64,000 bases of DNA from Aspidiotus rigidus. Its lineage: Eukaryota; Arthropoda; Insecta; Hemiptera; Diaspididae. The translations under genes and the position numbers were made by a program. The stretch spans positions 12,772,001 to 12,836,000 of the forward strand of contig JAVHKY010000052.1 in NCBI GenBank assembly GCA_035079385.1, given 5' to 3'. How positions within the stretch are numbered: the first letter of the stretch is position 1; each line of letters starts with the position of its first letter. Under the pieces are notes generated by a model, which worked only from the letters and a program-made list of their open reading frames with translations, did not search any database and was not told where the DNA came from. Below are positions 1,461 to 46,883 of this stretch, in pieces.

Positions 1461-2105
1461 CTATTTTTAAGAAAAAATATAAACTTGTGATACTAGATGG
1501 TAGGTACATTTCATTAGGGCAAATTTTGAGTAGATTTTTGTCGGATTATTTTATATTCCATTTATTTGATAAGCAAAACTTATTATGGATCGTTCCAGAT
1601 AAAAGAACTGGTTGCATCAACTATTGTATTGAGCCAATGAATCATGATCATACACCAAAGACAGAACACTAAAAAGTTGAACAGCCTACAGCAAATAATA
1701 TGAAGATGTGAATTTCGACGTAATCATATCCTAATGGAATTTAGAATTTTACCTATAAGAAAAAAGCTATTTATATTGAAGTTTACGCTGCGCCAATGGT
1801 GGCGACTGTTAATCTTGTTCTAGCGCACTCGGAGAGATCTTGATCTTTTCAGTTTTCTCAACTCCTCATGACTTTTAAAGGTCCAAAAATTTCAATAAAA
1901 ATTGACAAAGAATTCGGAAACTTGATGGTTTTGATTAATTTTGGATGTTATTTGAAATTCTTATATTAATTGTATAATTGAACCCTTCTTTTCAAGAATG
2001 GCGTATCTCTTATGGGAAGAGAAGGGCTCGAGTTATGTAATACCTCCTCATTTGTGTACCTTCAATATGAACATTTTTTATAATAACAAATTACAGCAGA
2101 CGGCA
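1461..2105. other. No gene seen
   Basis: AT-rich sequence with only short chance ORFs. No splice-supported exon, repeat pair or RNA gene was recognised. Confidence 0.5.
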
Positions 2106-2370
2106 GAATTGAGGTATCTTCTCGTTTTGATCAGGTTCTGTAGAGATTCAAAAATAATTATCATTCATAGAAATAATCTCGTACAGCTTTATTTGTTGAG
2201 AGACCTTTTGAGATTGGACTTGAAGCACAGTGGACAGGAAAATTGAGAGATATTCTCCTTTGAATCAGGTTTCGTATAGATTCAAAAATAATGATAATTA
2301 ATTATAGAAATTATTTGATACAGCTTTGTGTGTCGAAAGCCCTTCTGTAATCGGCTTTCCTCATTCAAAT
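2106..2370. repeat. Imperfect tandem duplication, unit about 130 bp
   Basis: The block around 2146-2230 (GATTCAAAAATAAT then ATTATAGAAAT-like sequence and ACAGCTTT) recurs around 2277-2360 with substitutions and small indels. The preceding TCTC...GATCAGGTT also recurs. It has no coding potential and looks like an old local duplication. Confidence 0.4.
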
Positions 2371-2593
2371 GTACGAAAAATTTAGCTCTTTCAGGTTCCT
2401 AATAATGAAGAATTGAAAATTGAAATGATACAAGTTAGTAAACTCATTAGAGTAAGGGTCCTTTGGATTGACGAATGAATGAAAACGAATATTTTATCAT
2501 TAGAAGGAGGATAATGAAGATGAACGTTCTTTGCAAACGTCTAATAAAAACTCATTCTGAATAGAAAGATTTTTCCGTGGTTAAAATTATAAT

Positions 2594-2738
2594 AATAAAG
2601 TACAAGACTGGCACTATTAACCACAGTTTTTTTATTGAGAAATGAAAACTGCAAACGTTTCGGTAGACTAGCTACCATCATCAGTGCAGAAACGAAACTC
2701 TCAAACTGTGGTCAATAGTGCCAGTCTTGTACTTTATT
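2594..2738. repeat. 145-bp foldback with 36-bp arms and a hammerhead-like core
   Basis: Arms 2594-2629 and 2703-2738 are reverse complements with one mismatch (AATAAAGTACAAGACTGGCA against its complement). The loop holds the hammerhead-like motif listed separately at 2649-2684 on the minus strand. No protein is encoded. Either a MITE or a remnant of a Penelope-like or retrozyme-like element is possible. Confidence 0.7.
2649..2684 (-). other. Hammerhead-ribozyme-like core
   Basis: On the minus strand the order is CTGATGA (2684-2678), one extra T, a 5-bp hairpin GGTAG/CTACC (2676-2662), then GAAAC (2661-2657) and GTTTGC. CUGANGA, stem II and GAAA are the conserved hammerhead boxes. The unpaired U and the lack of a clear NUH cleavage triplet with stem III argue for a variant or degenerate copy. 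Hammerheads are known in Penelope-like elements and retrozymes. Activity is not claimed. Confidence 0.45.
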
Positions 2739-4312
2739 GAAAACTCATTCGGCAATTTAAACAAAGAAATATTGAAAAAAAAAAAGATTGATTGATGCAA
2801 CCGAACTGCATTATTTCAATACGCCCATCTGTATAGAAAAAGTCAAAAATCTAACACCTCTGGCAGGAAGATTACCATAATTACACTCGTATTGAACCTA
2901 CCATTTCTGTTGACAGGCCTGTTTGTATCACAGAACATGTAAATTTTTCTACTCTTTTTATTTCAGATTTCTTAACTAGGTACGTGAAATGAAAAGAAAA
3001 CAAAGATCAATTCTATGCCCTGTAATATTTCAACTAGAGAAATTATAGACCGGAAATTGCTAGGCGAAAAGGAGCCGTTACTCATTTGAGTACAGCCCTT
3101 TGTCAGAAAAAAATCAATAGAATTACTCGTTATTTTGAACGTATGGACACTCATTCGATACCGCTCTCCGTACTTAATTTAATTAATGTAAATGTTATCG
3201 AGAATAGGAAGTCGAGGGAGAGGTCATAGTTCTCTTCTACAACATGCGTAGAATTTGAATTGATACACCTGAAGTTTACTCAAAATACCGAAATCAAAAT
3301 GAATATTTATTCACTTGTTCTAATTTTCCATTTTTTTATCCTGTCTGTAAAACCGACGGTGAGTAAATCTTCAAATCAGAGCTTGATATCTATTTTAGTC
3401 TTTTCTACTTTTTACAAAAAAACTTTCGACCAAATTGGTGAGCTGTGAATAACTCGGATTTGTTGACAAGGCTCTAGTTTTTCGTCATTAAGTAAGATCA
3501 AATGAGTGTTAAAGCTACTGTACCACATTTAAGACAGGTGAAAGCCTGAGTTTTACAAATGTATATATCTATAAGGTTGGTTCTTGAGTAAGCCTATCAA
3601 GATTTGGGGTGACATACGGGAAACATTATATATCTACAGACTGGACCTCGATTTCTCTCAAAAAATTGAAATTGAATCATACAATTAGTAGGCTGCAGAA
3701 AATCAAAGAACATAATCGCTAATTTTCGCACTATTCGCTCGAAAACCATTCTGACTCCTAATTTACACTTTTTTATTTCGTGTGTGTGTTGTTCCGAATT
3801 GCTCGGTCGACTTGCCACTAGCGTACTGAATTGTTTGGCGGCTGACGGTTTCTCTTTGTAAGAAGGGGGAGAAAACAATAGATTTGGTCGAGATAATATG
3901 ATAATCTTCAATACTCCTCGTTTATTCTGAATTGATTATGTAGGCATAAATTCCCATCTTACAACAGTTGCGAGCGCAAACGTTGTCTGCGAGTATTGCG
4001 GTTATAGAATGCGGGCATTATTCTTCTAATTGGTTTTATATTCTTTTTACTCTTATTTGAAATGTATAGCGGGTTGCCTGGAAGGTGCTCAAAGGAAAAA
4101 TCGCAAATTCGCGGAGCTACCTCCAAACTCCGGAGTGCTAAAGTGAGGATTTAAGCCGAGGTGTTGGAGTCTGGAGCATTTTGCCTCCGGAGGTACCTTG
4201 CTTCCACCAAAAGGCTTGGAGATGCCTCCAAGGACCCTTTCAGGGGCATTTTTTTTCAAGAGTATTAAATTCCTTGAACCTCATTCAGCCACTTTGATGC
4301 TAGCGCTGCTTG
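2739..4312. other. No gene seen
   Basis: Intergenic AT-rich sequence. The ORFs here (up to 104 codons on the minus strand at 3597-3911) have no motif, no supporting splice sites and biased composition, and I treat them as chance. From about 4060 the sequence becomes rich in GGAGGC/GCCTCC words. Confidence 0.45.
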
Positions 4313-5817
4313 GTTCAAATAAAAACTACACCTTCTGAGTATCATCTGTCATCTGGCAACACTTATCAACATTACAAATGCCTCCAGAGACGTCTTTGGA
4401 GGCATTTTCTCCAATTTCAGTAATTGCGCTGGAGGCACTTGGAGGTGCCTCCAGAAACACACTTTGAACTTTAGAGGTCACAAGGCGCTTCCAAACCGAG
4501 TCCATTGGAGGAAACCGGAGTCGGAGGGTCATTTTCTGTATTTGTTCCACAGGCAGTGTCGGAGACGCCACTGGAGGTACTTGGAACGTTGATCAGTATC
4601 ACCAGACATGCCCATCTCTAGTATCAGGCCAAAATATTAGATCTGGCAATGTCGCGATGACGAAAAATACGGGGCCGAGTTTTATACAGACTCTTAACCT
4701 GGCTTTAATCATTGACTTGCGAACAGTATTTTGATTACGCGGCGAAAAAGTTTATAAATACTGTATATTATGGAAAGAGTAAACGATTCTTAATTTTTTG
4801 AACTCGGTCTCGTTAAGATTTATCCACCACGAAGCGAGTTATTCACGTTTTAAAATAAACAGTCAGACAGAGGGCAAAGCGCCGTACATTCGCCCTCTGT
4901 CGGACTTTTTATTTTAAAATGTGAATAACTCGGTTTGTAGTTGATCAATCTTAATGAGACCATGCTCAAAATATTGAAAAACGCCGTCTCTTTAAATGAC
5001 GTTCTTTGCATTTTCTTCAAAAACTTCATCATATTTGTGTAAAATGAAGTTTTTCAATGTTCTCCCATAAGGTACTATACAAATTTTAGCCCCGTGCACG
5101 TTGTCAAGTTTCGAAGATTCCGGCCTGATTCTAGAGACGACCATGGACCAGATGTAGCACCGTGGGATGTAGTATGGCCGTCTCTAGTTACAGGCCGTAA
5201 TATTCGAAACATGACAACGTTCCACGGGGCTAACATTTGTACAGTCTCTTATGGGAGAACATCAAAAAATACTATTTGACACACGTACAGTGAAGTTTTT
5301 GAGAAAAATGAAGAGAACGTGAGTTGAAGAACAAACGATTCTCGATTTTTTGAGCTAGGTCTCGTTAAGATTGATCAACTACGAAGCGAGTTATTCACGT
5401 TTAAAAAAAAAAGTCAGATAGAGGGCGAAGCGCGGTACATGTACTGCACTTCGCCCTCTGTCCGACTTTTTTTTTTTAAAAGTGAATAACTCGCTTCGTA
5501 GTTGATCAATATTAACGAGACCTAGCTCAAAAAATCGAGAATTGTTTACTCTTTCGATATAATCATAAACTTTTTCCCTTCGGAATTGAATACTATGCGC
5601 AAATCAACAATTAACGTGTTTTTCGAAGATTTTCCCATAAGAGCGTGTATAAAACTCGGCCCCTATTTTTCGTCACCGCGACGTTGCCAGCTTTAATATT
5701 CCGGCCTGTAACTAGAGACGGCCATGGATGTAGTATATTGGCCTATCAGTGTTGCCAGACGACAGAATGATGATGATACTCAGAAGGTGTAATAAAAACT
5801 TCAATTTTTATTTGAAT
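4313..5817. repeat. Nested foldback cluster (about 1.5 kb)
   Basis: The outer arms share TTCAAATAAAAA...ACACCTTCTGAGTATCATC (4315-4370) inverted at 5743-5815. Inside, a second pair has GGGGCCGAGTTTTATACA (about 4671-4690) inverted at about 5645-5665, continuing to CTCTAG/AGGCC words at both ends. A third palindrome at about 5052-5265 carries the same CTCCCATAAG and CTAGAGACG ends. Two further hairpins at about 4800-4975 and 5335-5530 share GAAGCGAGTTATTCACG and GCCCTCTGT. This looks like repeated insertion of one foldback family into itself. There is no ORF of substance. Confidence 0.65.
4377..4590. repeat. Clustered GCCTCC/GGAGGC words
   Basis: Within the left arm of the nested cluster, GCCTCCAG, TGGAGGCA and related words recur in both orientations roughly every 20-40 bp. 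The same words occur at about 4150-4240. It may be a separate small palindromic repeat inserted here. The 81-codon minus-strand ORF over it is low complexity and not a gene. Confidence 0.35.
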
Positions 5818-5927
5818 CGGCAACAGTGAACTCAATTTCTGGCTGGAACGTGTAAGTGCTGAACGAAAAAAGAGAGAGAAAGAAGATATTCCGTTCAACT
5901 GGGCTTTGTCGTTTCATGCGCGGGAGA

Positions 5928-6595
5928 ACGTAAACTCCGCACACGTTGGTGTAAATTCCGCACACAGGTATTTTCCGCACACTTTGAGAGTATGTAAATT
6001 CCGCACACAGATATTTTTGAGGTCATAGCAGCCCATAAGTACGGCGGAAAGTTCGCGTTGTCGGAAATATAATTACGAACGAGATAGTCGGAAAATTGTC
6101 GTAATTTTTCCTCGTCGGGTCGAATATTTAGTAAATCAGAAAAGAAAGCTGAACGTACTTCGTTAGGATTCAGGAATGCTTCCTGACGATTGCATTTTGC
6201 CACATCCACACTGTGTCTGTGAACTCCGATCTCCTTCAACACTTCGTCATCTTGAATGAGTACACAGGCTGTACACGATTTTTGAGTACATCTATACGTC
6301 ACATATTCCTGCTTTGTACCTCGCGAACTGTCAACAAACGTTAGCGCCATTGTACTCGTGAATTAAAGTGACTATCAAGTATTGTAAAAAGTGATTGACG
6401 AACACCTATCAGTTATGAGTAACGTACAAGTTTCCTCTTGAATGGTAGATAAGGGATGCCGATACACACTATTTATTTTCACCTGTGCGCAAATTACATG
6501 ACACCGTTTCGTGTGCTAAACGCCACTGTGCGGAGTTTACCCAAACCCTGACTGCGCTCCTCTTCGTTCTCTCGGCCAACGTGTGCGGAGTTTAC
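5928..6595. mobile_element. Short-TIR insertion carrying a FLYWCH-type fragment
   Basis: The ends read GTAAACTCCGCACACGTTGG (about 5930) and its complement (about 6574-6595), with extra copies of GTAAATTCCGCACACA just inside the left end. The unit interrupts the CAGTGAAC MITE. It contains the zinc-finger ORF fragment at 6020-6350, so it is probably a shortened MULE-type element. The ends show no convincing target duplication. Confidence 0.5.
6020..6350 (-). pseudogene. FLYWCH-like zinc-finger N-terminus of a MULE transposase (fragment)
   Basis: The 110 codons contain YRCTQKSCTACV (residues 19-30) followed by EIGVHRHSVD (40-49), a C-x4-C...H-x-H pattern typical of FLYWCH zinc fingers. A later PPYLWAAM (102-109) resembles the short motif that follows this finger in many insect MULE proteins. 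In those transposons the FLYWCH domain binds DNA near the element ends. No catalytic DDE region follows: past residue 112 the frame runs into the element's own terminal repeat. The start ATG at 6348-6350 gives the first plausible residue. I read this as a decayed fragment inside the 5928-6595 insertion. A domesticated single-finger protein is possible but less likely. Confidence 0.5.
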
Positions 6596-19289: not shown

Positions 19290-19458
19290 CGCCGCAAGGC
19301 ATGAACCTCTTCCAACCTCCTGTGAGGTTGCTTGTTTTTTTTTCAGTCTCACGATGTTGTTCTCCGACTTTTCGATTTCGATGTGCGATGTGCGATATAG
19401 TACATCGAGTCGATTGTTTTACTACAACGAGAAAAGCAGTTTTTGTGTAGGAATGTAT
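19290..19458. repeat. Dispersed repeat, second copy
   Basis: Same family as 15047-15210 (see there). It carries a short tandem GATGTGCGATGTGCGATATA. Its similarity stops at about 19457, one hint for the left limit of the large unit that follows. Confidence 0.6.
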
Positions 19459-19480
19459 AGTACGCCAAAATAGAAGTGAG

Positions 19481-19746
19481 TGGTGGAAATGATTCCTATA
19501 AAGCTAGTTTTCGATACATTTGTTCATTAGGTAGTACTTATCAACATACTAAAAATCCCCTCCCCTCTGACCCGTGCATCGTGATCCAAACGTCCCAATT
19601 TTCAGACTTTTTTTCATAACTCGCTTAATACGCATCAGATCGAAAAATGTTTCAAACAAAAGTTGAAGCCCATAAAATTTTCTTGAAAAATGGTTCCTAT
19701 CATTCTTTCGTTCCGAGCAACAGAAGCGGAGATAAATGACGCTGAA
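19481..19746. repeat. Left inverted repeat of the nuclease-CXC unit
   Basis: Begins TGGTGGAAATGATTCC and ends GATAAATGACGCTGAA. It is the complement of the right arm at 32709-33277 apart from small indels and the MITE there. Confidence 0.8.
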
Positions 19747-20342
19747 ATTGCCAAGTTCTTTTATACAGTATAGAGTACCTACCTATAGCATGGCGCGTAG
19801 AATACAACACAGTGGACGTACAACATGTAGTGGTGTAGTTTCTTGAAAAGTCGTATACAAATACAGTATGTACGTACATTATTATCAGAATTAAAGAGGA
19901 TAAATTAACATATTTATATTATAATTATTTTTTTTAAATGAATTATTCATTCTTGGTATAATATATAGGTAATTAATAATTATTTTTATGTAATTAAATT
20001 GGTTAATTAAATTAATAAATATACTTAGGCCCAATTATTATAATGTTTATTTCAAATAGGTCTATTTTTATTAAAATTCATTTTAGATTAAGTATGATTA
20101 TGAAAGGTAGTAAAATTAAGTTGAATATTCGACAACACATTAGTGTACATACATGGCGTACACATATTACCAATCAATGTATAGAATGATTTCTTCAATG
20201 TTTTCATCATCATGTTCACCGTCGTCTTCTGTATTTAGGCTTAGATAATCATTTTTATTAAAGCAAGATTTTCCTATAAGAACATAGGTACAAGCATAAA
20301 TAATTCGGTGGTAAATAATTATTAAGTTTTTTAGATGGAAAA
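19747..20342. other. 3' flank of the nuclease-CXC gene, no further gene
   Basis: Very AT-rich between the left arm and the stop codon. No second ORF is seen, so the unit seems to encode one protein. Confidence 0.45.
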
Positions 20343-21614
20343 TCAAAGAAGGTACTTATCATTACCTTCACAATGGGAACATATTACGGAACATTTTAAT
20401 CCGGCTTTTCGACAGCCACAGCTCCGCAAGCAGCCTTTTTTGCAAGCACATGCAATGTTATTAAGGAGAGCTTGCGGAGCAGGCAACAATGTGCTTTGTA
20501 TAGGCTCTAAAGGAAAACCTTGCCATCCCCATTCCTGCGGCGACAGGGCGCAGTTATTCCAAGTCGCAATTTGGTGGTATACTCTCAGTGAATGGTAATG
20601 CGCTGCGTCCTCTGTAGGAGGAAGTTTCTCAAAGGTCGTGGGCTTCATACTTTTTGCGACCTTCCTTTTGAAGAACACAAAGCGGAACTCATTCAACGAT
20701 ATTTCTCGTTCGCACTTATACAATGACAGTATAAGTCTACTACCCATTGAAATGACCTCCTCTTGGGTTAGATTTTTTTGCTGAAAACGAGCTGCCAAAC
20801 CCTGAGCTTTTTCGTCGTTTTTCAGCCACGTGAAAATCGTGCTCTTGCCTTTTGTAAAAAAAACCGAAGTCGAATCACAGCCTGAAATGGGGAAAAACAC
20901 TGTAAAAAATGAAATGACGTCAGAGCTAGCTACTTCGGGGAAAATTATTCCTTTTTGTACCTGAGAAGGCGTGCATGAAGAGAATATAATTCTCAATGTT
21001 CGGATAGGAAGTACGAATAGCTTCTGGACAATATACCACAGAATCCGTTCTTCCTTTCCCTGTTCTTCTGCCCGGCTTGAAAAGTTTTACGTCCACTTTC
21101 AAAAAGGAAGAATGAAAGAGAAGGAGGACGAGAAGATCCACATCTTCTCCAACAATGTACACTCGACGAGATTTTTTTTTCGCTACACTGATGGCTGTTT
21201 GAACTATGAGTACATCCGCATCCCCTTCCGATTGCTCTACCGCAATGCCCTCATTTACAAACCGATCTTTCAGGGCTTCGATGAATCGGATCTTGTTCTT
21301 CATATTAGCCAGAAATACTTCACGACTCACAGTGACTTCCATAGAATCAGTAAACAAAATTTCATTCGTTTCGACTTTTGCATAGCGTCTTCTTTGTTCG
21401 GCCACCTTTGTGCTATCCAAAGCATGTGCGTAACCATCAAAAACTACAGTCGAGTCAGAAAAATTTCTCTTCACATAGGCAATGTAAGCGTCCTGAATAC
21501 TGCTATAAGTGGATGCTTGAGGCCAGAAAACTTTGTGTAGTAGGAAACCACCGTCAATAACGTGGCAAGCGCATCCATTAGTAGCATCTTCTGAGTATGT
21601 TGTAAACATACTAT

Positions 21615-23443
21615 GGGTGATTCTCAAAATTAGGGCATATTTCAAGTGAATAAAATTTTTTTTGCTGAAGAGCTATTTTTCAGGATTTTTTTCTGTAGGT
21701 TGTTAGTAGACAGGTCCCTGATACTAGTACACGCCTTTAGCTTAATTCATTCCAAGAAGGGGCGGGGGTAGAGGGTATTCAAAAATATTGATCCATTACG
21801 TAGGAATTTCCATCGTAATGGCAACCATGGTGTAAGAATTTCCATCGTAGTGGCAACCAAAATGTAAGAATTTCTTTGGTAATGGCTAGACTGGATGGCT
21901 GATTTTCAAGTATCTAGATATCATAACGTTGATATTGCAAGGTGAGTTGACCAACAGCATAATTATGTACGTTTGTTACACTTTAATGAGTGCCTAAATT
22001 CCCTTAATTTCAGGTGAATATTGTCATTTGTAGAATACAAAATAATGGTCCATTCTGTTTTTTGGCTGACATGAAGCTAGCAACACAAGAGGAATATCAC
22101 ATGTAAGGATTTAAACTATACTCATTTTACTATTTAGTAATAAGAAAATATAATTGAACAATATAATTGAACTCACAAAGGAGAAACAAAAAACATGACT
22201 AAAAAAAGTAACGTCATCGGCTGCTGAAAACATAAAGAACACAAAATGTGAACAAGTAATATTCTCTAGGATTTCTTCATACTCCTGAATCCAAATGTTG
22301 TAAATAGATGAACCATGAATTTAACTTACAAAATAAACTTACAAAAAAGAAAAAAAAAAAAAGAACTAAAACAGGTAACTTCTGTCTGAACAAGTAACAT
22401 TCTCTAGGATTTCTTTATACTCCTGAATCCAAATGTTGTAAATAGATGAACCATGAATTTAACTTTTCTTACGTCGGAGTCGTTCCTTTTGTGATAGGAC
22501 CGTGACAGAACATGAAGCTTCGAGTAGGTAGTTGACAAAACCTGCAAGAATTCTAAATTATCATTTCAGATAAAGAATATTATCCAGAAACTTGAAAAGG
22601 GTACACTGGTAGAAAAATCTCACAGCCTCAATCCATCGTAGTGGTCAAAATTATTTTACTGCCACTACGAAAGATAAGCAAAAATGTCCACGGCCAAGGA
22701 AAACGTGTCGATAAATCAAATTTAAAGCCTCATACAATAGTTTTTTCAGCTATTATTGACAATTTAATTACAATATACTTACCAATTTTTTATAATGCTT
22801 CTTCTTTTCTAGGATTCTCTTCCATGCAGGCGAGATTTGACGAGCCACTACAAAAGAACCGCGAAATTGTAAATACGACACTTCTCAGACACTTTTGATA
22901 ATAAAACCTGGATGATGTTATTTGAATTGATAATCTAAGCTGTAAGTTATTCTCTACCTGAGCCGACAAGCAAACAGCCAGCTCGCGACATGAAAATAAT
23001 ATTCAACCAGTGTGACCGGAAGAGCCACTTCAAAATTATGAAAAAATAGCCACGGCGATGGAACTACAAACTGTTACCAAACTTTGAGTTTAACCTGAGG
23101 AAGTGTGATGTACTCACAGTCACTATTCTTGGCATTAATAGTTACTTTCACTCCTGCTAGTGAATTTCTGTCAACGTTTTCCGAGGAAAAACAGATTTAT
23201 TACATCATTTTACCAAACTCAAGATTTGAATCTATTTGAGGTTACAGCCACTACGATGGAACATTTTGTATATTTTGATTCATTTTGAGGTACATGAAGG
23301 GGTGGGGGCACGAATCTATGTGGCTATACAGGTTGGGGGGATACTATATTATCTATATTCACAAAAGAAAGAAGGAAAATGGACGCATTTTAGTCCTTAA
23401 AAAGTGGAGTTACAAGAATATGCCCTAATTCTGAGAATCACCC
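21615..23443. mobile_element. 1,829-bp non-autonomous DNA element inside exon 4 of the nuclease gene
   Basis: The ends read GGGTGATTCTCAAAATTAGG and, inverted, GGGTGATTCTCAGAATTAGG (about 27 bp, GGGCATATT inside). CTAT flanks both sides (21611-21614 and 23444-23447). Removing the element and one CTAT restores the reading frame through the site exactly. It has no long ORF. A 4-bp duplication with GGG-type ends might suggest a Sola-like element, but that is only a guess. Confidence 0.85.
22250..22465. repeat. Direct repeat pair of about 77 bp inside the 1.83-kb element
   Basis: GAACAAGTAATATTCTCTAG...CCATGAATTTAACTT at 22250-22326 recurs at 22388-22465 with two changes, separated by an A-rich spacer. 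The CCATCGTA(A/G)TGGCAACCA words at about 21810-21860 are also locally repeated. Confidence 0.75.
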
Positions 23444-25856
23444 CTATATAAAGACGATTTCGCAGTTTTAAGCATTCCAGATTGGTCGAAAAGCGATGGA
23501 GGGAATGGTGCCAGCTCATGTGAGAAACATTCGCGTAATTCTTCCTCGTCGGTAGTGAAACAAAGAATTCTTTGGAAAAGTTGATTAGTATCCACCACGT
23601 TTGTCTTATCTCGGATTTTCACCGACGAATTTTTGTTCAATAATGTAGTAACCCTATTACTCCTCTTAAATTTTACATCATCAAAATCTTCCCCAATGAT
23701 GTTTTCTAAATTTTGAGAACCAATTTCAAATGCTTTTTACAGAACTGTCGCCGACGGTACCGTTTGAAATGTTGATGACGTTGTCTGCGATGGGAAACGG
23801 GGGATGCTCGTTAAACCATGCTAAGACTTTTCGAACGTCTTCTGTATCTCTTTGTATTCTGGAAGATCGGAGCTCTACATGCTGTTCGCTGGTATGGGAA
23901 TGGATTGATGCATATTTCTCAATGTTCTCACACAAATCATAAGTCGTTGGTATGGTGAGAATGAATTTGTGAATAACGTCTTCTTTGAAACCACGACCTA
24001 TAAATAAGAAAAATTGGAAACGACCGTTTTTCCGAAAAATGGAAATGCAGAATAGGTATTGTATACCTAAATGAGAAACTCCAACCCTCCCTCCCTCAAC
24101 ATTCTTTTCTTTTTTTTCCAGTTCCATTTTTATTAGGAAATGTGCTCAAGAATACTTACCTATGAGACCTCCTCGAGACTTGATCATTCGCATGAGACTT
24201 TGCTCAATCGTGAGATCTGACCAGAGGCCACTCCAAAATTTTTCAGATCTGCTTATAGTGAAAAAACCTTCGGTAGTCCATTTGTTGTATTTGTCTGGAG
24301 GCATACGTTGCGCCAACATGTACATATCTTGGAGGTAAATGTGAGCGCTCTTAGCGTAATGAAGATGACCCGAGGCGTGAAAGAAAGGCAACATGTTATG
24401 AATAGTTTGTAAATGTAGATCCCAGTTACCTACGAGATTCAGTTTTCATTATTTACAATACTCTGTACACCAGTAAAAAAGGGTAGTACGTACTCACCAG
24501 AACGTTCCGCCTCTATGAAATTTCTTATTAGATTAACTAAATGGAAATATTGAACCCATAAGGCTGCCGTGTGCCCACGTTCACAAAAATTTTTCGGTTG
24601 TTCGCGTAGAATATTTTTACAGTTGACTACTACTTCTTTCAGGTTATCGTTGTCATCAAGATTCAAGTCATCGTCGAAAGCAGAGGCTGCACTGAATTTT
24701 TCCAAGAATTCTATTATCTCTGGATCCCCTGCATCCAAGTTGCATTCTTCAAAAATAAGTGTGGCGATGGCTAACTGGGTGATAAAATGCGCTCTCAGGG
24801 TTCGTGAGAACGGATGCCCAGTCATCATCTGAGATGCCACATTTGGGGCGTACATGGTGGTCCAAACTTCTTGTAATCCACTTCCTGTCATGATATAACC
24901 TATGGCACCCATGAACGACATCAGGAGGTGGAACCCTCCTAAACGAATTATTACGTTTGCAAATTCATCGGATGCACTAGCCAAGCATTGTAACATATCA
25001 TGTGCCTTTGCAAACAGAGGTTGGTCAAACGTGAGGAAGACGCATGTCTGTTTCAGAGTACCAGATTTCAGTGAATTCGCAGCGTGTTTCAAGACAGTGA
25101 AAATAGCATCGTACAAACTCGGAGGCAAATTTATGAAAGGTAGACAGGTGATTTTAGACGTTTCATATTTTCTTGAAGCAGTCATTTTGGACATAAAACC
25201 GCTCCACGAAGGAAAATTATTTTTCTTCTTCGAACTAGCTAACATCCATAGGAGAGAAAGGTCGGTGGGCATTGTTTCACCTCCATCACAATAATGCGGC
25301 TTCATTTTTTTTAAATCAGCAACTTTCAAATTATTTTTATTTGATACAAAATCCCAATGATGAATAGGAATTTTGGTTTCTTTGAAGTACTTCCTACAGT
25401 CGACAATTCGTTGTTTCGGAAAAGTTTCACTGGGAAATTTTGTACCAGGGGTATCACATTTAATACCTCCCATCTGGTGAAAAGTATTAAGGCCATCAAG
25501 AGTATTGACATTAAAATCGGCGTTATCAAAGACATACTGACTGTAGCTGCTATCATTTTCAGATGTTTTCAATGCGAGAGAAGAAAATTCATATGTAAGA
25601 GTATCGTGATACGCTGAACATAGACCCAAGTTTGATAGCATATCAATCAGTAGTTGTGACCCAAATTTTCGATGCAGATATACAGTAACACCTACAAGAA
25701 ATGTTCATAAAAAAACCAAAAATGTATTACTTCAAATGAATGCATGAATAAATAAATAAATGAATAATTAAAAACATAAATAATGTCTTAGTACATACAA
25801 TGCTGCTGAATAAATTAGAAAAATTGTTTCTTTTCTGACATAAAATCAAATGACTC

Positions 25857-26057
25857 TGTAAAGGGAGTCGGAAAAGTATAAGACTCGAAAATATTAAATG
25901 GTAACTTTTATTCACTATAAAGGTACTGGCGAGAGAGCCGCGGTCGAATTACAAAGCATATAGATAGACACACAACTGAGAATAGGTATGAAGATAAACA
26001 ATGACAGATAGCAAGATTAAGTAGGTATTGTGTGGCGATGCCGGACGAGCCGTTACA
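25857..26057 (-). repeat. 3' LTR of the Gypsy element
   Basis: On the plus strand it runs TGTAAAGGGAGTCGG...GAGCCGTTACA. It differs from the other LTR by one indel and a few substitutions (GCAAGATT/GCAGATT, GTGTGGCGATG/GTGCGGCGTTG). Confidence 0.9.
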
Positions 26058-26493
26058 AGGCCCCCCCTTTTTGAGAGGGGAGCTCAAACAATCGAAAAAA
26101 GAAAAAAAAAAAGATTTACATGAAAATTACAACACAAAATATCGAACGTCAATGTCGTAAGTACGATCAGAATACAAAGTGTGGGTAAAAACATTTGGCT
26201 AAAATGCTCAAACCCTTACAACAAAACGAACTACGTCAATCATTTTGAATATCGATTAATGGAGAACACCTCGGAAAAGGAAAAAAAACGACAATTTATA
26301 ATCTTCCTCGCGAGTAGTTGGAAATGTATCCAAAAACCCAAAAAAACTTGGACTTCTCACATGAGTAACTTCCAGTCAAAATGAAACCTATGTACGAACT
26401 ACTAAAAATGAGAAAATGACAATTCAAACTAGTCTCAACGCGTTATATTTTGGTTATTTACAAAATCTGGCAGGCGGTTTGCCCTTGTTTAAT

Positions 26494-29400
26494 CTATTTG
26501 ATCGACGGTTCCGCGATTCGAACCTTTTTAGCGGGTGCAACGTTTTCAGGAATGGGAATTGAGGAAATAGCAGGAGGAGGATCATTATTATACGGTAGTT
26601 CGTGGAAGTAATGTTTTCTATGCTTTTTTAATATGCTCGCCGGTTCACTTGGTTCCTCCTTCCCTTGTATGCAGTCCGGCGGATCGTTGTCATTGGGATT
26701 GTTGTCATGTGATGGGGCCGCATCAATTAATTTGTAAGCTGGCTTCAGCCTCGTTATATGAACAGTGTCTTCCTTGTCGTTTTTAAGGATTTTGAAGTAG
26801 TTTTTCGATCCGTGTAACACTGTATAGGGACCTTCATATGGGGGTTCCAAAGATACTCGTACTCTATCTACGCGAAGGTATACCTTGTCTGTTTTGTATA
26901 AATCTTTGTGAATGAAGAGTTTGTTGGTGGTCCTCGTTCTTCCACCTTTTGGTCTCACAGCGCGTAGAGTTGCTCTGAGCTCTTTTACAAAATCCGTCTT
27001 GTCGGCTATTTCTGTTCCATCTTCGAAAAATTCTCCAGGCAGCCTAACTTTTTCTCCGTACGCCATTTCAGCAGCGGTGATTCCGGAGTCGTCACGTGGA
27101 GCAGCTCGTAGGCCTAGTAAAATCATAGGGAGGTGCCAAAACCATTTCGCTTGGTGACATTCCAAATTCTCTTCAAGTTTTTTATGCACCCGTTCAACTT
27201 TGCCGTTGCTCATTGGGTGATAAGCTGTAGTAGTAATATGGTGGACTCCTAATAGCTTAGTGAGTTCATCAAAAAGTTCTGAAGTAAATTGTGAGCCTCG
27301 GTCGGAAGTCAAATTTAGAGGAACGCCAAACCGTGCGACCCATTCATGCACAAGCACTTGTGCCACTTTTTCGGCTGTGACTTCGCGTAACGGCTTGACT
27401 TCCATCCAGTTGGTTGCGCAGTCTATCATGGAACAAGCGAATGTGTGACCATTTGAAGGCTTTAACAGACCAATCAAATCAATGTGTACATGTTTGAATC
27501 TTTTGGAGTGTGGAAAACTTTCAACTGGTACTTTGACGTGGTGGTAAATTTTTGTTTTTTGACAATTCCCGCACGCTCGTGTGTATTCTCGAAGCTCTTT
27601 GCTCATCTTGGGCCAGAAATATTTCGCTTTTATCAGTTGTGTTGTCGCCTTAATTCCTGGGTGAGCTAAATCGTGGATTTGCCTGAAAATTTGGAAACGT
27701 AATTTTTTTGGAACAATTGGTCAGTCACCTACACAAAATAACGTGATGTCTTCCTTTGCTTCTACCTTGCGAACTTTTTCGTTATTTTTGTCTATCCATT
27801 TTTGGATTTCGTCGTCTTTTATTTGTTCTTCGGCAATTTTCACATGATCAACTATTACAATAGATGCTACTTCAGGTCGACTCAGAGCGTCTGCAACTAT
27901 ATTTGAGGATCCTGCGATGTGCACAATGTTTGTTGCAAATTGAGCGATATATTCTGCAAAACGGGCTCTGCGGTCAATTTTTCCTCTTTTCTTGGTAGTG
28001 AAAAGGTGCGTGAGCGCTCGGTGATCTGTTAGTATGACAAAATTCCGTCCTTCGAGAATATATTCAAAATGTTGAATGGCCATATACACGGCGTACAATT
28101 CTTGATCGTATGGTGGCCAGTGGGATTGTTGCTCAGTTAGTTTGTGTGAATAGAACCCGATTGGTTCGCGCTTCCCATCTTCGTCCAGTTGTTCTAAAAC
28201 GGCGCCTACGGCAATACTAGAAGCGTCACATGTTAGGTATAGTTGTGCCTTTTCGCGCGGGTAATGTAACAAAGTATAATTTGAAAATGAAATACGCATT
28301 TTTTCAAAATTTTCTATTAGTTCGCTAGTCCATTTGATTTTTGTAGTGTCATTCTTCCTAGGATGTCCTTTCAGCAACTCGTTGAATGGGGATAAATTCT
28401 GCGCTGCTTCTTTATTAAACTGTCTATAAAAATTAAATATTCTTATTACTTTGCGTAACGCTTTGATGGTAGTTGGGCGCTGCATGGATTTAAAAAATTT
28501 GACTCGGTCTTCCGTGGGTCAAAAACCTTCTGGTGAAAGGTGGTAACCTAGAAATATCAGTTCCGGAACACAAAACACCGATTTCGAAATATTGATTGAC
28601 AGCCTAGCTTCCTCTAATCGCTGAAATAGGATGCGTAAATGCGCGATATGTTCTTTGGGAGAATCAGAAAATACGTGTCATCAATGTAACAGAAAAGGAA
28701 AGGTAGGTCGGACAGGGTAGAGTCCATAAATCTCTGATATGTTGCAGCCGCATTTTTTAAACCGAAAGGCATTCTTAAATAATGAAAAAGGCCTGCGGGG
28801 CAAATTACAGCAGTTTTTGGAACGTGTTCTGGGTACACCGGAACTCTATAATAAGCTCTAACCATATCTATTTTAGAAAAATATTTTTTATCTCTAAGAT
28901 TTACCGTACAATTTTGTAATAGTGGTAGCGGGTATCTGTCGGGAATCGTAACGCTATTCAAAGACTTGTAATCTCCGATGAGTCGCGTAGTTCCATCTCC
29001 TTTTTTCCGCGCCACAAGTGGTGCTGCCCACTGCGAATTGGATCGTTCACAAATACCTTTTTCCACCAAATCATTAAATTCGCGTTTGACTATGTTCGAG
29101 AGGTGTGGATTGAGTTTACGTACCTTGTCGTGTTGCGGTGGGCCTGTTGTTTCAATGTAGTGCATTACGGATGATGTCGATTCGTCGGACTCCTTGTGAT
29201 ATTGAGCAGGTAACATGAGGCTCTTGAACTCCGTTAATAATTCCGCGATTGCTGGGTTAGAAAGGTTTCCCGGTGCTATTGCTTTGATCGATAATTGCGT
29301 ACATTCTTTCCAATTTCCAAATGAGCTGCATAAAGTTTTCCCGTTGATCAGTTTCCGTTTGTTCAAATCGAGTAATAAATGATAATACGCTAGGAAATCG

Positions 29401-29705
29401 GCTCCTAAAATTGGACAGCTTACGTCGGCGATTATGAAATTCCACTTGAATTTTTTCGGTAGTCCCACGTCGATTTCGATCATACCGTGTATGTTGATTT
29501 TGGAACCATTGGCTGCGTATAGTGTGTAGTTGAGGTCTATTTCCGCGCCTTTTAGGAATCCTTTGGGTAGCGCGGATACGTCGGAGCCACTGTCGGTGAG
29601 GAAATCAATTTCGTTAATTCTGTCGTGAACAAAAAGTCAGTACGACGCAAATTGGATATCTGAGAGCTGCTGCGTCGCGGAAACAGTCCTCAGTTGTCGT
29701 TTCCC
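26494..29705 (-). pseudogene. Pol of the Gypsy element (protease, RT, RNase H, integrase), broken
   Basis: Domains in order are a protease with LTDSGSDVSA (about 29610), RT with WAAPLVARKKGDGTTRL and FCYIDD (about 28690), RNase H with LYLTCDASSIAVGAVLEQ and LTDHRALT, integrase with an HHCC finger (HDLAHPG...CGNC, about 27670-27560), then HIDLIGL, TSDRGSQF and GKVERVHKKL (D, D and E of the catalytic triad), and a C-terminal tail ending at 26494. Damage is in-frame TGA at 29637-29639, 28519-28521 and 27721-27723, plus a frameshift near 28675 just after YIDD. The rest keeps one frame, so the decay is slight. Pol copies the RNA to DNA and inserts it. This copy should be inactive without helper proteins unless the stops are read through. 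Confidence 0.85.
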
Positions 29706-30616
29706 TTTCCCCATCGTTTACAACCTCTGTAACACTTGTTAGCTTTATCGGCGAAGGTGTGATGATACCAACATTGATTCTCGAAAAGTTGCGGTTCGGG
29801 TTCGGATTCTCGTTTACTTTTGTATGGGGTAGCGCTTCGCGATCTATCTCTTTGATAATTCCTATCCCCTCGGTTGAAATTTCTTCCACTTCGCTGCGTG
29901 GTGTCCAGGTTTAATTTGTCCACGGAGGCTGTCAACGCGGCTACTTGTCCGTTTAGTAGGATCATTAATTTTGCCAACTGTTCAGTGAGTGAGGACGTTG
30001 TGTTTACGCATGGAGCCGGGTTAAATTTTTCGAGCGCGCATGAATGCTGGGTGATATTTGCAGAATCGGATTTTTCAACTTTGTGTAATCGGTCAGCTAT
30101 TTTTGCTAATTTTTCTGTTGCGACATCTTCGCTCGTTGCCAGCGCCTTTTCAATGTCTGTGGGTAGCCGATTTATCCAGATTCTTCTAATGACATTATCT
30201 GCTTGTGTCGTTCCCGCACGTCTTTTGAGTAAATTTAAAATAGCCGACGGTTTTGATCCCACCGGTATATCTGTACCTGCAAGTAATTTATCTAGCTTGG
30301 CGTCTTCTGATTCTCCAAACGTTTGAATTAATCGGTTTTTCGCTGCCGTGAAACGGTCGTTTATGTTTTGTGCATTCATGATAATGTCTTCAATATTCTC
30401 GGCCTGGGTTGTTGATAAAGCTTGCATCAGGAATGAGAATTTCTTCTCTTCAGTTTCGACTTCGTTAGTAGAGAAAATTATATCCACCATGTTAAACCAT
30501 AATTCAGGGTTTTTCATAGCGAAATCGGGCAAGGTAAAACGTTTCACGTTTTGACCGGTCATCGTTGACACTCGAGTGATTTTGCAGCCAAATTTACCTG
30601 GCCAGAAATTTTGCAT
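29690..30616 (-). CDS. Gag of the Gypsy element
   Basis: 308 codons from ATG at 30616. The capsid-like region includes LPDFAMKNPELWFNMVDIIF (about residues 29-48) and QADNVIRRIWINRLP, typical of insect Gypsy Gag. The C-terminus is basic and carries a zinc knuckle of the C-x2-H-x9-C-x3-C kind (CWYHHTFADKANKCYRGC), the CHCC form seen in the CsRn1 group. Gag forms the particle and binds the RNA genome. Just before the stop, the minus strand reads the heptamer G GGA AAC in the gag frame (29705-29699), a classical -1 slippery site, and pol lies in the -1 frame. Gag itself has no visible damage. Confidence 0.8.
   Translation of the reverse strand: MQNFWPGKFGCKITRVSTMTGQNVKRFTLPDFAMKNPELWFNMVDIIFSTNEVETEEKKFSFLMQALSTTQAENIEDIIMNAQNINDRFTAAKNRLIQTFGESEDAKLDKLLAGTDIPVGSKPSAILNLLKRRAGTTQADNVIRRIWINRLPTDIEKALATSEDVATEKLAKIADRLHKVEKSDSANITQHSCALEKFNPAPCVNTTSSLTEQLAKLMILLNGQVAALTASVDKLNLDTTQRSGRNFNRGDRNYQRDRSRSATPYKSKRESEPEPQLFENQCWYHHTFADKANKCYRGCKRWGKGNDN
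29699..29705 (-). promoter_or_regulatory. Putative -1 ribosomal frameshift site (GGGAAAC)
   Basis: Heptamer in X XXY YYZ register with the gag frame, two codons before the gag stop (29690-29692). The downstream pol frame is -1 relative to gag. No pseudoknot was worked out. Confidence 0.55.
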
Positions 30617-30691
30617 GCACCTTTGTATTGCACTTAACTAAATTAATCAATGTAACACCAATTGCGATTCGGATTTGTCACGGTCGCCACT

Positions 30692-30891
30692 TGTAAAGGG
30701 AGTCGGAAAAGTATAAGACTCGAAAATATTAAATGGTAACTTTTATTCACTATAAAGGTACTGGCGAGAGAGCCGCGGTCGAATTACAAAGCATATAGAT
30801 AGACACACAACTGAGAATAGGTATGAAGATAAACAATGACAGATAGCAGATTAAGTAGGTATTGTGCGGCGTTGCCGGACGAGCCGTTACA
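30692..30891 (-). repeat. 5' LTR of the Gypsy element
   Basis: Partner of 25857-26057. It is followed on the minus strand by two bases and then the primer binding site at 30689-30674. Confidence 0.9.
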
Positions 30892-32708
30892 ACTCGCTAG
30901 GAGTATGTACTAATAATAAATTAGGCTACATCATTACAAATCAATATCCTTGTTAATTTTTTAACATAAAATTTAGCAACTCGCTAGGAGTACTGATGAT
31001 AAATAACACGATTATAATAATCATCCTTTAATTTTCTAGCATAAAATTGAGCGACTCGCTAGGAGTACCTACATACCGATAGTACATAACACGATTGAAA
31101 ATAAATTATCTGTAAAGTTCGTAACTATACGAAAAAAATTTGATGATTGTAAAAAGTGTACCGTTAAATAAAAACAATTTGGTTATCAGAAGAATTCATG
31201 AACAAGAATACGAACCTCTGGTTACATAATTTCTGATGATTCAAGTGATCGAAGTACCGTTTAAGCCAAAGTAGGAATTATCTTACCTGTTAGTACCGAG
31301 GAATTGAAGCTTCGAGGACGTGTAGCTGCAATAATCGCATGAGCAATTGTAATGCATTTTCTGTCGTAATCTTCTGGAGTCCTTTTATTCTTCGAAATGA
31401 TGTCCTTCAGCAAACACAGTAACGTTTCAGGTACTTCACTCACAGCCGAAGACATAAGAGTATTTGGGCACGGATAATTCGCCGTATCATATATTCTTCC
31501 TCATATGTCTTCTCGGATGATTTCGGCAGCAGTTCGAACAAGTCGTAATCTTTCCAAATTTTCATCGGCTTCTCTTTGATTGTACCAATTCTGAAGAAAG
31601 ATTTTGTTTCCAAAATTCCGGAGTGTCACAACACAACCGACACCTTTCAGCGAGCTGAAAAGTATATCGTGACCATATCTTTCAGTGAGTTTCTGTTTCA
31701 TATACTTTTCACAGTATGCATCCTCACCCGCTACACTCATGAGCTCTTTCATCGTGTACTGGCAATCGTCGTCATTTTCTATATATTGACATACCTTCTC
31801 GAATGCTTCTAGACTACTCATATTCTGGGAACCACCAACCTTTGAAGTAGAAAGAGTCATGTTACGGAACTGATCCATACACTGTTTGTGGTACCTGGCT
31901 TCCTCGGCAAACAGACACAGGACACCTTGTACCCGCCTTTCAACGATTTTGGCTTTCACATCCCGTCTGCTTTGGCACACTTCCAGTAAGGATTCTCTGA
32001 GCTTTGTACTCTGGACTTGATGAATAGTTCGACACCTCTCTTTGTGGAGCTTCCTTTCGATTTCCTCGGAACATGTTTCGCCGCAAATTAAACAATCGAT
32101 TCTATAATTGAACGCAGAAGCTGCACACCTAAGTTTCTTCTTTACAGGTGATAAGGATTCAGCAGAAGCCGGTAACGATGATGCGGAAGCTTTGAGGTCA
32201 GCTTTGATGGAATTTTCACGCGTATATCTCTTCCGACATTCTTCGTGCACATTAATTGCAGTCTTACCGTCAAGATTTTCCGCGACGTCGTCTCCTCTCC
32301 TGCGACTAACAGTTATAAGAGTTGATAAACCTTTCTGACCAACGGACACAACTTTACCTTTCGAAACGCTATCATTGCATAATATACACAAAGAATCCAT
32401 TCCTATGAACCTAGAGAATAGAGCCGTGTAATAGAATCACCTTTTCCTTCTTTTTCTTTGTAAATAAATACGAGTATACTCACCATTCAGACTGTAATTA
32501 TATTGTAAATGAACTGTTGCAATCACGTTAACTGGAGTGAAATCATCAATTTCAAAAAGTAGAAAAATGAAAATTATCACGAACGTCGAACGCCGAGCAT
32601 TGATAACAACCGGTGTATTGATAAATATTGATATCGAATGTACAGTAGGTAGCGCGACGGCCATGGTAGCCCTCATGTAAATCTGAATTTATGGTACTCA
32701 ACCTCAAC

Positions 32709-33277
32709 TTCAGCGTCATTTATCTCCGCTTCTGTTGCTCGGAACGAAAGAATGATAGTAACCATTTTTCAAGAAAATTTTATGGGCTTCAACTTTTGTT
32801 TAAAACATTTTTCGATCTGATGCGTATTAAGCGAGTTATGAAAAAAAGTCTGAAAATTGGGACGTTCCGCCCTCTGTGGATCACGATGCACGGGTCAGAG
32901 GGGAGGGGATTTTTAGTATGTTGATAAGTAGTACCTAATGAACAATAATGTACCGAAAACTAGCTTTATTCGCATGAGGACACAACTGTAGGTGCGCTAG
33001 AGTCTTGCCCGAAAAGAGGATTCGGCAAAAATTGCCATAAACCTGTATAAAACTAAAACGGGCTGTATCTTTGTCAATATTGAAAAATACAAAAAAGTAG
33101 TAAGAGCATTTTTTTATTATTTTCATTCATAGAATAACCTAAAAGAAGAAAAAATTAGGATTTCAACAATTTTCTGTAACATCCCCTTTTCAGGCAGCTT
33201 CCAAAAATGGCCACCACAGTTTTCATAGAGGGCGCCTACTTTGTGTCCTCATGCGAATAGGAATCATTTTTCCACCA
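32709..33277. repeat. Right inverted repeat of the nuclease-CXC unit (interrupted)
   Basis: Starts TTCAGCGTCATTTATCTCCG and ends CATTTTTCCACCACC. It is split by the MITE at 32969-33257. Outside the MITE it aligns with the complement of 19481-19746, with an extra CGCCCTCTGT-like insert at about 32866. Confidence 0.8.
32969..33257. mobile_element. 289-bp MITE inside the right inverted repeat
   Basis: Ends TTCGCATGAGGACACAA and complement, next to GTAGGTGCGC/GGCGCCTAC, with TA on both sides. The left arm of the large unit lacks it, so it arrived after the arms were formed. Confidence 0.85.
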
Positions 33278-33990: not shown

Positions 33991-34076
33991 GTTCGAATCG
34001 AATGTGAACGAGTTCTCTTTCACGTTTTGCGTGCGATTATTATTCTCCTGAACTGCGTACCTCCAAAAGGCTTTTC

Positions 34077-34386
34077 CAGCGTTCCATATTGCATAATTAT
34101 TTGCCTGATTCTTATCCGTGGCTTCCGCAAATAGAATGGGTCACATAAACCAACCCGCGACCCGCTTTCATGAAAAAAAAATTGATTACGATGCGAGGAA
34201 GCGGTTCGCGGGTTTGTTTACATGACCCATTCTATTTGCGGACAGCATTGATCTTATGGCAGGATAACACCGGAATGAAAATGAGTATGCAACCTAGCAA
34301 TACCCATGAGAATAATGTTAGAAAGCCCACCGTATTGATAAAAATGAGGCGAATAAGTATGCAATATGGAACGCTAGAAAAGCCTT
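34077..34386. mobile_element. Foldback of the AGGGCTTTTCC family split by a MITE
   Basis: AAGGCTTTTCCAGCGTTCCA and ATTGCATA at the left match the complement of TATGCAATATGGAACGCTAG at the right. The MITE at 34122-34242 sits in it. The family is seen uninterrupted at 50851-51063. Confidence 0.65.
34122..34242. mobile_element. About 120-bp palindromic MITE (TCCGCAAATAGAATGGGTCA)
   Basis: Arms TCCGCAAATAGAATGGGTCA and GCGACCCGCTTTC are mirrored at the right end. It is a close relative of 34834-34971. Confidence 0.75.
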
Positions 34387-34833
34387 ATAATCCTCCCTGA
34401 TTATTATGTATCAAGCAGAGTTGATAAGTTGGTTAGCTGAAAGCTGAACGTCTGAAGCCGAAGCCACATAATTTTGGGAAACGGGCTGAAATTTGTTAAT
34501 CAGAGAGAAATAGAAGGTGAGAAATGGAAAATACATTCTCAAATACTTGAGATCTTCCAGATCTTGAATATCAATGTTGAATTCCTTATTTATTTCTCAT
34601 TTTGAAATACTAACACATGCTCGAAATGTTCCCCGTGTATTCTTATGGGAGTCGATAATGTTCTCAGCACCATCCCATGATACTATCGCAGAATATCGCG
34701 CACTATCGATCAAAATCGCTCGATGTTAGCAGTTGATGACGTCATGTGAACAAAGAGAATTGCGATTTATGTGAGGTCATCAATTCTACTTCGTACAAAA
34801 CAAAACTGCGAGGCATGAACCTCTTACAACCTC

Positions 34834-34971
34834 TATAGTCTGTCCGCAAATAGAATGGGTCACGTAAACAAACCCGCGAACCGCTTCCTCGCATTGTAAT
34901 CAATTTTTTTTTGTATGAAAGCGGGTCGCGGGTTTGTTTACATGACCCATACTATTTGCGGACAGACTATA
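34834..34971. mobile_element. 138-bp palindromic MITE, TATAGTCTGTCCGC ends
   Basis: Near-perfect arms (TATAGTCTGTCCGCAAATAG, GTTTGTTTAC, CGCGAACCGC), with the middle TTGATTACAATGCGAGG. It is inserted in a copy of the GGCATGAACCTCTTACAAC repeat. The element at 39448-39638 shares TATAGTCTGT(T)CC ends. Confidence 0.8.
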
Positions 34972-35714
34972 CAAATTGAGTTCACTGGCTCTACCTAGTC
35001 ACTCACGTAGACTCACACAAAATATGTATCACATGTGGCGATTTTTGCCCCGCGATAACTGATTAAATAAAGCATGAAATATCTTGAAACTTTGTATTCA
35101 TTCGGGCCGTGCATCTGCAAGAGAGCGCCACCGTCAAGCCCTCGTTATCAAAACATCATAGGGTGAACATTTTGTCGCATGAGCGAATTCCCCATTGATT
35201 TGTACAGGAACGAGTTTTCAAAAATTCATAGAAAATTAAGAAAGATTCCTCAGGTTCTGAATTCAAGGTATTGTATTTGAGTGGGTGTGATCTTTATGAA
35301 TTAGAAAAATCATCCATTTTCAACACGCGGTTTTGGAGAAATTACAAGTTGAAGATTTTTGCCCGTGTATTAAGATACCCCATGGTACGGATGTTCACCC
35401 ATGGGTTTGTGTGAGTGCGCGTCACGCCCGAATGTAGACAAAACTTAGGAAAATACGGCTAATTGGTTCACACGAACTAATTTTGTTCATTAATTGGAAT
35501 TCAACGATTCAAAGATGGCCCTTTCAGATGTAAGTTTAAATGTTTCCTGAAGATCATTCAGAATATTTTGCGATCTGTCAACTAATTGGCCGTATTTTCC
35601 TCAACTTCAAGAATAAATTACACCACGTTCCTAATCATTTCCTAGATTATTCGGTACATTATATGTGGGCAAAAATGACTACCCGCAAGACACCATTTTG
35701 TGTAATATACGTGT
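34972..35714. other. No gene seen
   Basis: Starts with a scrap of the CAGTGAAC MITE end (ATTGAGTTCACTGG, about 34976). GGGTGAACAT (35162) and ATGTTCACCC (35391) may be worn ends of another foldback. No exon supported. Confidence 0.35.
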
Positions 35715-45677: not shown

Positions 45678-46883
45678 TAGTCCAGTAAAATTAGCCATTG
45701 TAATAAACAATAAATGGTACAGAAGCGAAATTTGGAAAAGTTGTTAGGAATCTTCTCGTGAGTCTTTTCCGAAGTTTCCCCAACATTCCGAGTAGAGCTT
45801 TTGCCCCCAGGGGGCTGCAAAGGGAAAATTTTTTAGTTTTCCAGCTCTAATTCGCGAACAAATGATTTTAGAGGAAAAATGTTCAAATAAAAATTGTTCA
45901 TCGTAAAATTTCCCATAAAAAAGGTCTCTACATAATATTTTCTCTATAAATGCACTGTTACGCCACTACAGCGCGTGACAAGTGAACACCTCTTGCTACT
46001 CCGTATGTGAGAATGTAGATCAGGTATACCACGCGACGCGAGTCACTTATTACATTGTTTTCGTTGGTACTAGTAAGTCGTAGATAGGAATTATTGTAAA
46101 AAAATAAATAATGATAAGTAAGAAAAGATAAATTTAATTTTAATCCTTTATAAACTCAAAAATTTTCAATTTTACATGCTTTTGTAACTGACTGTTTCTA
46201 CTTGTAAGTATTGAAAAGAAAAAGATTAGAAAATGAAAAATAAATTATGGTATTGATTATAAAGTGTTGATGTCCTCTTAAAATAGTAGATGTAGAATCT
46301 ATACCCAACCACATTAATTTGTTCCCAGGCCACTCGACGCGCAGAAACAATAACTCGCATTTTTATATGTGACCTGGTTCCAAGAAAGGGACCGGAGCGT
46401 CCAAATATCAATCTGGAGATATGGGTCTTCTTGCGTCTTCAGGCAGACTCTTATCTCCGGGTTCATATTTGAACGTTTTCAGTCCTTCCTGAAACCAGGT
46501 CACATATGGTAGAACGCAATGTGCTGCGTAAATCAATGTCAATGATACAGAGTAGTAAGAGGTGTTCACTTGTCACGCGCTGTAGCGGCGTAACAGTGCA
46601 TTTACAGAAAAAATATGTGGAGACCTTTTTTATAGAAAATTTTACGAGGAACAATTTTTGTTTGAACTTTTTTTCTCTAAAATCGTTTGTTTGCGAATTA
46701 GAGCTAGAAAACTAAAAAAATCCTTCCTTGTACCCCCCCCCCCTGGGGGAAAAGCTCCACTCGGAATGTTGGGGAAACTTGGGAAAAGACTCATGAGAAA
46801 GTTCCCAACAACTTTTCCAAGTTCCGCTTCTGTACCATTTATTGTTTTTTTTGATCTTTAAAATGGCTAATTTTACTGGACTA
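45678..46883. mobile_element. 1.2-kb foldback with about 320-bp inverted repeats
   Basis: The left arm starts TAGTCCAGTAAAATTAGCCA (45678) and the right arm ends with its complement at 46883. The arms also share ATAAATGGTACAGAAGCGAA and, at the inner end, GCGTGACAAGTGAACACCTC. A separate 143-bp MITE is inserted in the spacer. No ORF. Confidence 0.85.
46365..46507. mobile_element. 143-bp MITE, ATATGTGACCTGGTT ends
   Basis: ATATGTGACCTGGTTCCAAG at the left, complement with drift at 46485-46507. It is nested in the spacer of the 1.2-kb foldback. Confidence 0.7.

Follow-up and report, generated by a model that had tools for sequence, protein, structure and literature searches.

A probable AcademX-type DNA transposon, decayed, with a nuclease-like and CXC-bearing gene in Aspidiotus rigidus

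The stretch of Aspidiotus rigidus DNA analysed here (the window: 64,000 nucleotides, C52:12772001-12836000) contains an interrupted gene enclosed by long inverted repeats, and this unit is probably a decayed copy of an autonomous AcademX-type DNA transposon, classed by its anatomy and not by sequence homology to Academ. That the inverted repeats and the enclosed gene form a mobile DNA element, as the first-pass annotation of the window had proposed, is supported by further copies of the gene that carry the same arm, by an arm that ends at one common base in five flanks, by relatives present at two sites and by 3-bp target duplications in four of six insertion events. The genome searches with the arm and with the core were made in the 441.1-Mb assembly (102 contigs) from which the window comes.

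Structure of the element

The left terminal inverted repeat, on the 3' side of the gene, occupies 19458-19750 (plus strand), and the right one, on the 5' side, runs from 32705 to about 33297 (minus strand). Positions 32969-32705 pair with 19498-19750 at 93.6% identity, gaps included; within this pairing, gap-free stretches of 162 and 69 nt are 98-99% identical, and the local alignment score of 459 compares with a best of 31 among 200 single-base shuffles. The near-identical inverted arms around a single gene that had been noticed from the sequence are thus real, although their boundaries, first put at 19481-19746 and 32709-33277, have had to be shifted. When the arm is aligned with six others, which lie in four further flanks, all begin at one common base with TAGTACG, and this fixes the left end at 19458, 23 bp outside 19481. 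The outer end of the right arm is degenerate and was judged by eye to lie at about 33297, at TAAGAAC.

The gene lies on the minus strand, as do all of its pieces, and extends from about 32400 down to 20343. An exon 1 region of 299 amino acids (aa) with N-terminal cysteine modules (31501-32400) is followed by a 400-aa core piece (24439-25641) with the motifs FDNxD (first D at 25525-25527) and TFDQ (D at 25024-25026), by a continuation of the core with DLTIEQ (24146-24394; E at 24203-24205), and by a linker piece (23726-24127) that is joined to the nuclease exon in a copy on contig C21. The flap-nuclease-like domain (20926-21645) contains VIDGG (D codon 21553-21555), VFDGY (D codon 21436-21438), EGDAD (21220-21228) and GEDVD (21136-21144), whilst the GCD motif falls beyond a probable intron, in the next exon, together with the C-terminal part of the protein and the start of its CXC cysteine cluster (20343-20996). 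An intron, read as CEG/gtaatg...ttatag/GKSCFN, would put the CXC cluster in the last exon. Both the acidic motifs and the C-terminal placing of the cluster agree with the initial description of the gene.

Three later insertions interrupt the element, as had also been proposed, and each has its own target duplication. A young Ty3/Gypsy-type long terminal repeat (LTR) retrotransposon (25857-30892, minus strand) has LTRs that are identical at 199 of 201 aligned bases, with one gap, and is flanked by ACTC. A 1.83-kb insertion in the nuclease exon (21615-23443) has 12-bp ends GGGTGATTCTCA and the duplication CTAT; the stop-to-stop frames that it contains entire are all shorter than 110 aa. The sites of these two insertions are empty in the C21 copy, which is how the duplications ACTC and CTAT could be read. 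The third, of 289 bp, lies in the right arm (32969-33257); its terminal repeats, TTCGCATGAGGACACAA, are 17 bp long, and its duplication is TA. Subtraction of the three leaves an element of about 6.7 kb, close to the earlier estimate of about 6.6 kb and to the 6,556 and 6,551 bp of two relatives on C25 and C35.

Copies and relatives in the genome

Searched against the genome, the right arm matched 18 places: the two window arms, two places at 98% identity, four at about 80% and ten weaker ones. The TAGTACG start falls at the same base in the window, in C21 and C24 (9.4 Mb), in C54, in C52 (7.6 Mb) and in C24 (0.42 and 0.55 Mb); these make five flanks, C21 sharing its flank with C24 at 9.4 Mb, and C24 at 0.42 Mb sharing its flank with C24 at 0.55 Mb. 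The copies on C21 and C24 (9.4 Mb), about 98% identical, keep the gene and one arm, with core, nuclease and CXC pieces beside the arm at 96-99% amino-acid identity (88% in one 34-residue piece of the C24 copy). Neither contains the Gypsy retrotransposon or the 1.83-kb insertion. A single frame of 464 residues spans linker and nuclease in C21, and the C24 copy has a further interruption between its nuclease and CXC pieces. At C52 (7.63 Mb) and C24 (0.42 Mb), a diverged exon 1 (63-75% aa identity) lies 4.5-10 kb from arms of the 80% class, in a rearranged order. The arm searches thus bear out the expectation that the same terminal base would recur in different flanks, and that the gene would be found elsewhere with the same arm.

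The 400-aa core gave at least 105 matches in the genome, the window copy included, seven of them in open frames of 890 codons or more; the count is a lower bound, and a single locus may yield two matches. Both ends were found for two of these relatives, on C25 and C35 (40% identical), which are 99.7% identical to each other over 6.5 kb. They have terminal inverted repeats of about 400 bp, 94-95% identical, with ends TAGCCGAGG...CCTCGGCTA, and their open frames, of 1163 and 1160 codons, contain the core, VVFDGY, SDAD, GEDVD, GCD and the start of the C-terminal cysteine cluster. Their arms match positions 84-244 of the profile of the window-family arm (nhmmer E 4e-11 and 1e-8, over 16 kb). The two copies lie in different surroundings, since their right flanks do not match (blastn E <= 1e-5) and the 20 bases read on the left are not the same, and they are bounded by TTA/TTA and TAA/TAA, respectively.

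Short elements related by their arms were located with the arm profile in the fetched loci and in the window. Two of them, on C27 and C52 (12.65 Mb), have ATT/ATT and AAT/AAT in opposite orientation and represent one event, because their flanks and a surrounding repeat are common to both. Another is a second, gene-less element in the window itself (45678-46883, 1.2 kb), with arm-related inverted repeats of about 330 bp each and ends TAGTCCAG...CTGGACTA; with the ends placed at TAG as elsewhere, it has TGA on either side, the inverted repeat being one base longer. A 3-bp target duplication is found in four of the six insertion events that have both ends, and it is lacking at the window copy and at an element on C4. 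The tally covers two-ended events; it leaves aside the one-end copies (C54, C52 at 7.6 and 5.3 Mb, C24 at 0.4 and 0.55 Mb, C21/C24 at 9.4 Mb, C28, C11, C29 and C34) and the partial-arm loci C24 (2.66 Mb) and C78.

These copies bear directly on whether the gene belongs to a host family of multi-copy nuclease-CXC proteins that unrelated repeats happen to flank. The abundance of the protein (the core matches above), the existence of arm-bearing elements that lack the gene and the solitary arm on C54, where no part of the gene was found over the 20 kb retrieved, are what such a family might leave. However, arm and gene occur together at C21, C24, C25 and C35, the C25 and C35 copies stop at their arms, each in a flank of its own and with a 3-bp duplication, and the gene-less elements resemble the non-autonomous derivatives that an autonomous element would be expected to have. 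We consider a host gene family very improbable, and it was rejected on the two-ended elements with duplications in different flanks.

Three-bp AT-rich duplications such as TTA and TAA could also suggest a PIF/Harbinger-type element. But TGA and ATT are duplicated as well, the frames tested match no Pfam transposase, Harbinger-type or other, and the PIF/Harbinger protein layout differs from that of this element. The absence of a Harbinger-type match and the TGA duplication led us to reject this assignment, which is hardly credible.

The core and the nuclease-like domain

Two further relatives were added to the protein comparison as frames only, one from C52 (2.56 Mb; 1405 codons, core 27% identical) and one from C2 (a 756-codon part). 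The core is kept, with invariant acidic residues, across relatives that are 27-40% identical: the D of FDN and that of FDQ (FDL in one) are invariant in all three relatives compared, and the D and E of DxxxEQ in all four. The aspartates of FDN and FDQ, with the glutamate of EQ, are candidates for a DDE-type triad, and we think the 400-residue core a likelier transposase than the nuclease. In Pfam, the six window pieces gave weak matches only, and the core gave no significant match to any described transposase family. Weak core matches to DUF6589, at overlapping profile positions, appeared in three proteins (E 0.11, 0.027 and 0.0001), all scoring less than the 27 bits of the curated cut-off.

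In the nuclease part, D20, F58-D59, K69, E72, R76, D157, D159 and G218-C219-D220 are invariant in all four relatives. The order of these acidic residues is that expected of FEN/XPG enzymes, and, by comparison with FEN-1 motifs and with a profile alignment, the putative metal-binding ones follow the FEN/XPG order. An archaeal FEN-1 set (53 loci, 52 examined, 50 with frames long enough for alignment) served for profile comparison with hhalign. The local alignment of the two closest nuclease sequences scored 31.7 (probability 20%, E 0.0012), whereas 60 shuffles reached 22.0 at most, a setting picked after the four-sequence outcome was known; two global settings, run without shuffles, gave 4.3 and 2.9, and the unrelated core profile scored 15.8 against FEN-1. 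Searches of Pfam with four nuclease segments gave weak matches to seven families, the nuclease-like ones being 5_3_exonuc_N and NYN_YacP. No significant profile or structural match to the FEN/XPG superfamily came from Pfam, the PDB or a single-sequence structure model of the nuclease piece, which was unusable (mean pLDDT 33), and other PDB sequence searches returned nothing or two weak, unrelated matches. Scans of viral contigs with the core and the nuclease, and of genome contigs with the nuclease exon, found no relatives with six peptide patterns each. The XPG/FEN likeness proposed in the first-pass annotation thus rises above shuffles in the two-sequence setting but is not significant with four sequences, in Pfam or in the PDB; the motifs and one weak profile match suggest a nuclease identity weakly.

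The C52 relative at 2.56 Mb (L037, G000:C52:2563001-2567700, positions 360-4577) has no clear C-terminal CXC cluster inside its 1405-codon frame. The cluster could continue in another exon, or CXC could be less than universal in the family.

Discussion

The anatomy suggests how the element may have moved. Its one gene would encode a protein with N-terminal cysteine modules, a catalytic core, an XPG/FEN-like flap-nuclease domain and a C-terminal CXC cluster. The long terminal inverted repeats would be bound at their TAG...CTA ends, probably by the cysteine modules of this protein, which would move the element and leave a 3-bp duplication behind. Strand transfer would be done by the core, through the FDN D, the FDQ D and the EQ E, whilst the nuclease would trim or process the element ends. 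Such a division of labour between core and nuclease, with DNA binding by the CXC cluster, is what we infer. In contrast, the gene layout, the mobile unit with its ends and the 3-bp duplications of its relatives can be seen directly.

Several observations weigh against a decayed AcademX-type element. The window copy has a degenerate right end and, being flanked by the triplets GTA and TAA, no duplication; the C4 element (1.9 kb) is flanked by TAT and CCT and has none either. The C21 and C24 (9.4 Mb) copies are truncated, at window position 31596, and go back to a single insertion that was duplicated together with its flanks; in long blocks the two are 98.8-99.7% identical. No gene piece was found by tblastn (E <= 1) in the 20 kb fetched around the C54 arm, and among the core matches, of which there are at least 105, surroundings wide enough to show arms were read only for the three close copies and for C25 and C35. 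For the core, DUF6589 is weak where it is seen and has no match in the C25 protein, and a search of the genome for this family (E <= 0.001) found none, 14 control genomes being equally empty. For the nuclease, the position of EGDAD varies in the four-sequence alignment, and the local four-sequence hhalign scores against FEN-1 lie within shuffles (20.1 against 22.5 in 100 shuffles, and 16.4 against 23.5 in 60). The best related Pfam match of the window pieces is 5_3_exonuc_N at E 0.055, and exonuclease 1 accounts for four of 22 PDB matches (E 0.9-1.3), ranked below unrelated chains. Finally, the comparison contained no Academ reference sequence, so that nuclease, core and termini are likened to Academ by description only.

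The last of these points, the lack of a significant Pfam match between the core and a described transposase family, and the several nuclease acidic residues that are invariant in all four relatives would also fit a DNA transposon lineage of its own, outside Academ, with the flap-type nuclease itself as transposase and a non-catalytic core. We regard this as unlikely: a long core is kept with its invariant acidic residues across relatives as little as 27-40% identical, and the nuclease and 3-bp duplication agree with the AcademX description in the Academ passages of PMC10045372. A distinct, non-Academ superfamily, in which a flap-type nuclease cleaves the DNA in transposition and the CXC cluster binds the ends, is quite unlikely. 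Nor is there support for the initial suggestion that a nuclease-bearing superfamily would be new, since AcademX is reported in those passages with a nuclease and with duplications of 3-4 bp; the element fits Academ, a superfamily of eukaryotic DNA transposons that is known but has been studied little. The nuclease is not mentioned in the Academ passages of PMC10799480 and PMC9783078.

The AcademX-type reading matters for annotation as well as for mechanism. In annotation, the multi-copy nuclease-CXC proteins of animal genomes can easily be taken for products of host genes; the gene described here, which is of this kind, is part of a transposon with exact ends and, in its relatives, 3-bp duplications. 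Two of these relatives are near-identical, have both ends and contain a long open frame, and are therefore a good place to study a flap-type nuclease in cut-and-paste transposition. We found no paper that puts such a role to the test, in a search that lay outside the primary Academ papers.

Neighbouring features

Elsewhere in the window, a 2,253-codon open frame at 56401-63162 resembles by eye a retrotransposon polyprotein (reverse transcriptase, integrase, RNase H). A cluster of nested direct and inverted repeats at 34067-34978, with the motif CCGCAAATAGAATGGGTCA, is perhaps another short mobile element. An open reading frame on the minus strand at 5895-6362 resembles, again by eye, a FLYWCH-type zinc finger protein.

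Comparison with known systems

With FEN, XPG and EXO1 the element's nuclease part shares the acidic order VxD, VFDG..K..E..R, E/D-D-A, xDxD and GCD (for GxDY), and in the two-sequence profile SEGEA/SQDYD of FEN-1 align with EGDAD/GEDVD. The element's domain differs from these enzymes in having no significant family match in the searches above, and in a four-sequence profile that stays within shuffles.

Academ elements have terminal inverted repeats, and here too such repeats bound the unit, as the arms of the window element and the repeats of C25 and C35. AcademX nucleases are said to have been described as XPG-like, by Kapitonov and Jurka in 2010 and by Kojima in 2020. We infer the Academ assignment from this anatomy, the CXC cluster, termini and transposase of the element being set beside Academ by description only. 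If it is right, AcademH belongs to the same superfamily, but AcademH has a helicase and target duplications of 9 or 10 bp in the Academ passages of PMC10045372, against 3 bp here; no helicase is among the Pfam matches (E <= 10) of the window pieces and of the C21, C25 and C52 frames. The duplications of AcademX are given in the same passages as 3 or 4 bp, and the difference between the two groups is seemingly tied to the encoded nuclease or helicase. With a nuclease-like domain and duplications of TTA, TAA, TGA and ATT/AAT in its relatives, the element described here would fall on the AcademX side of that division.

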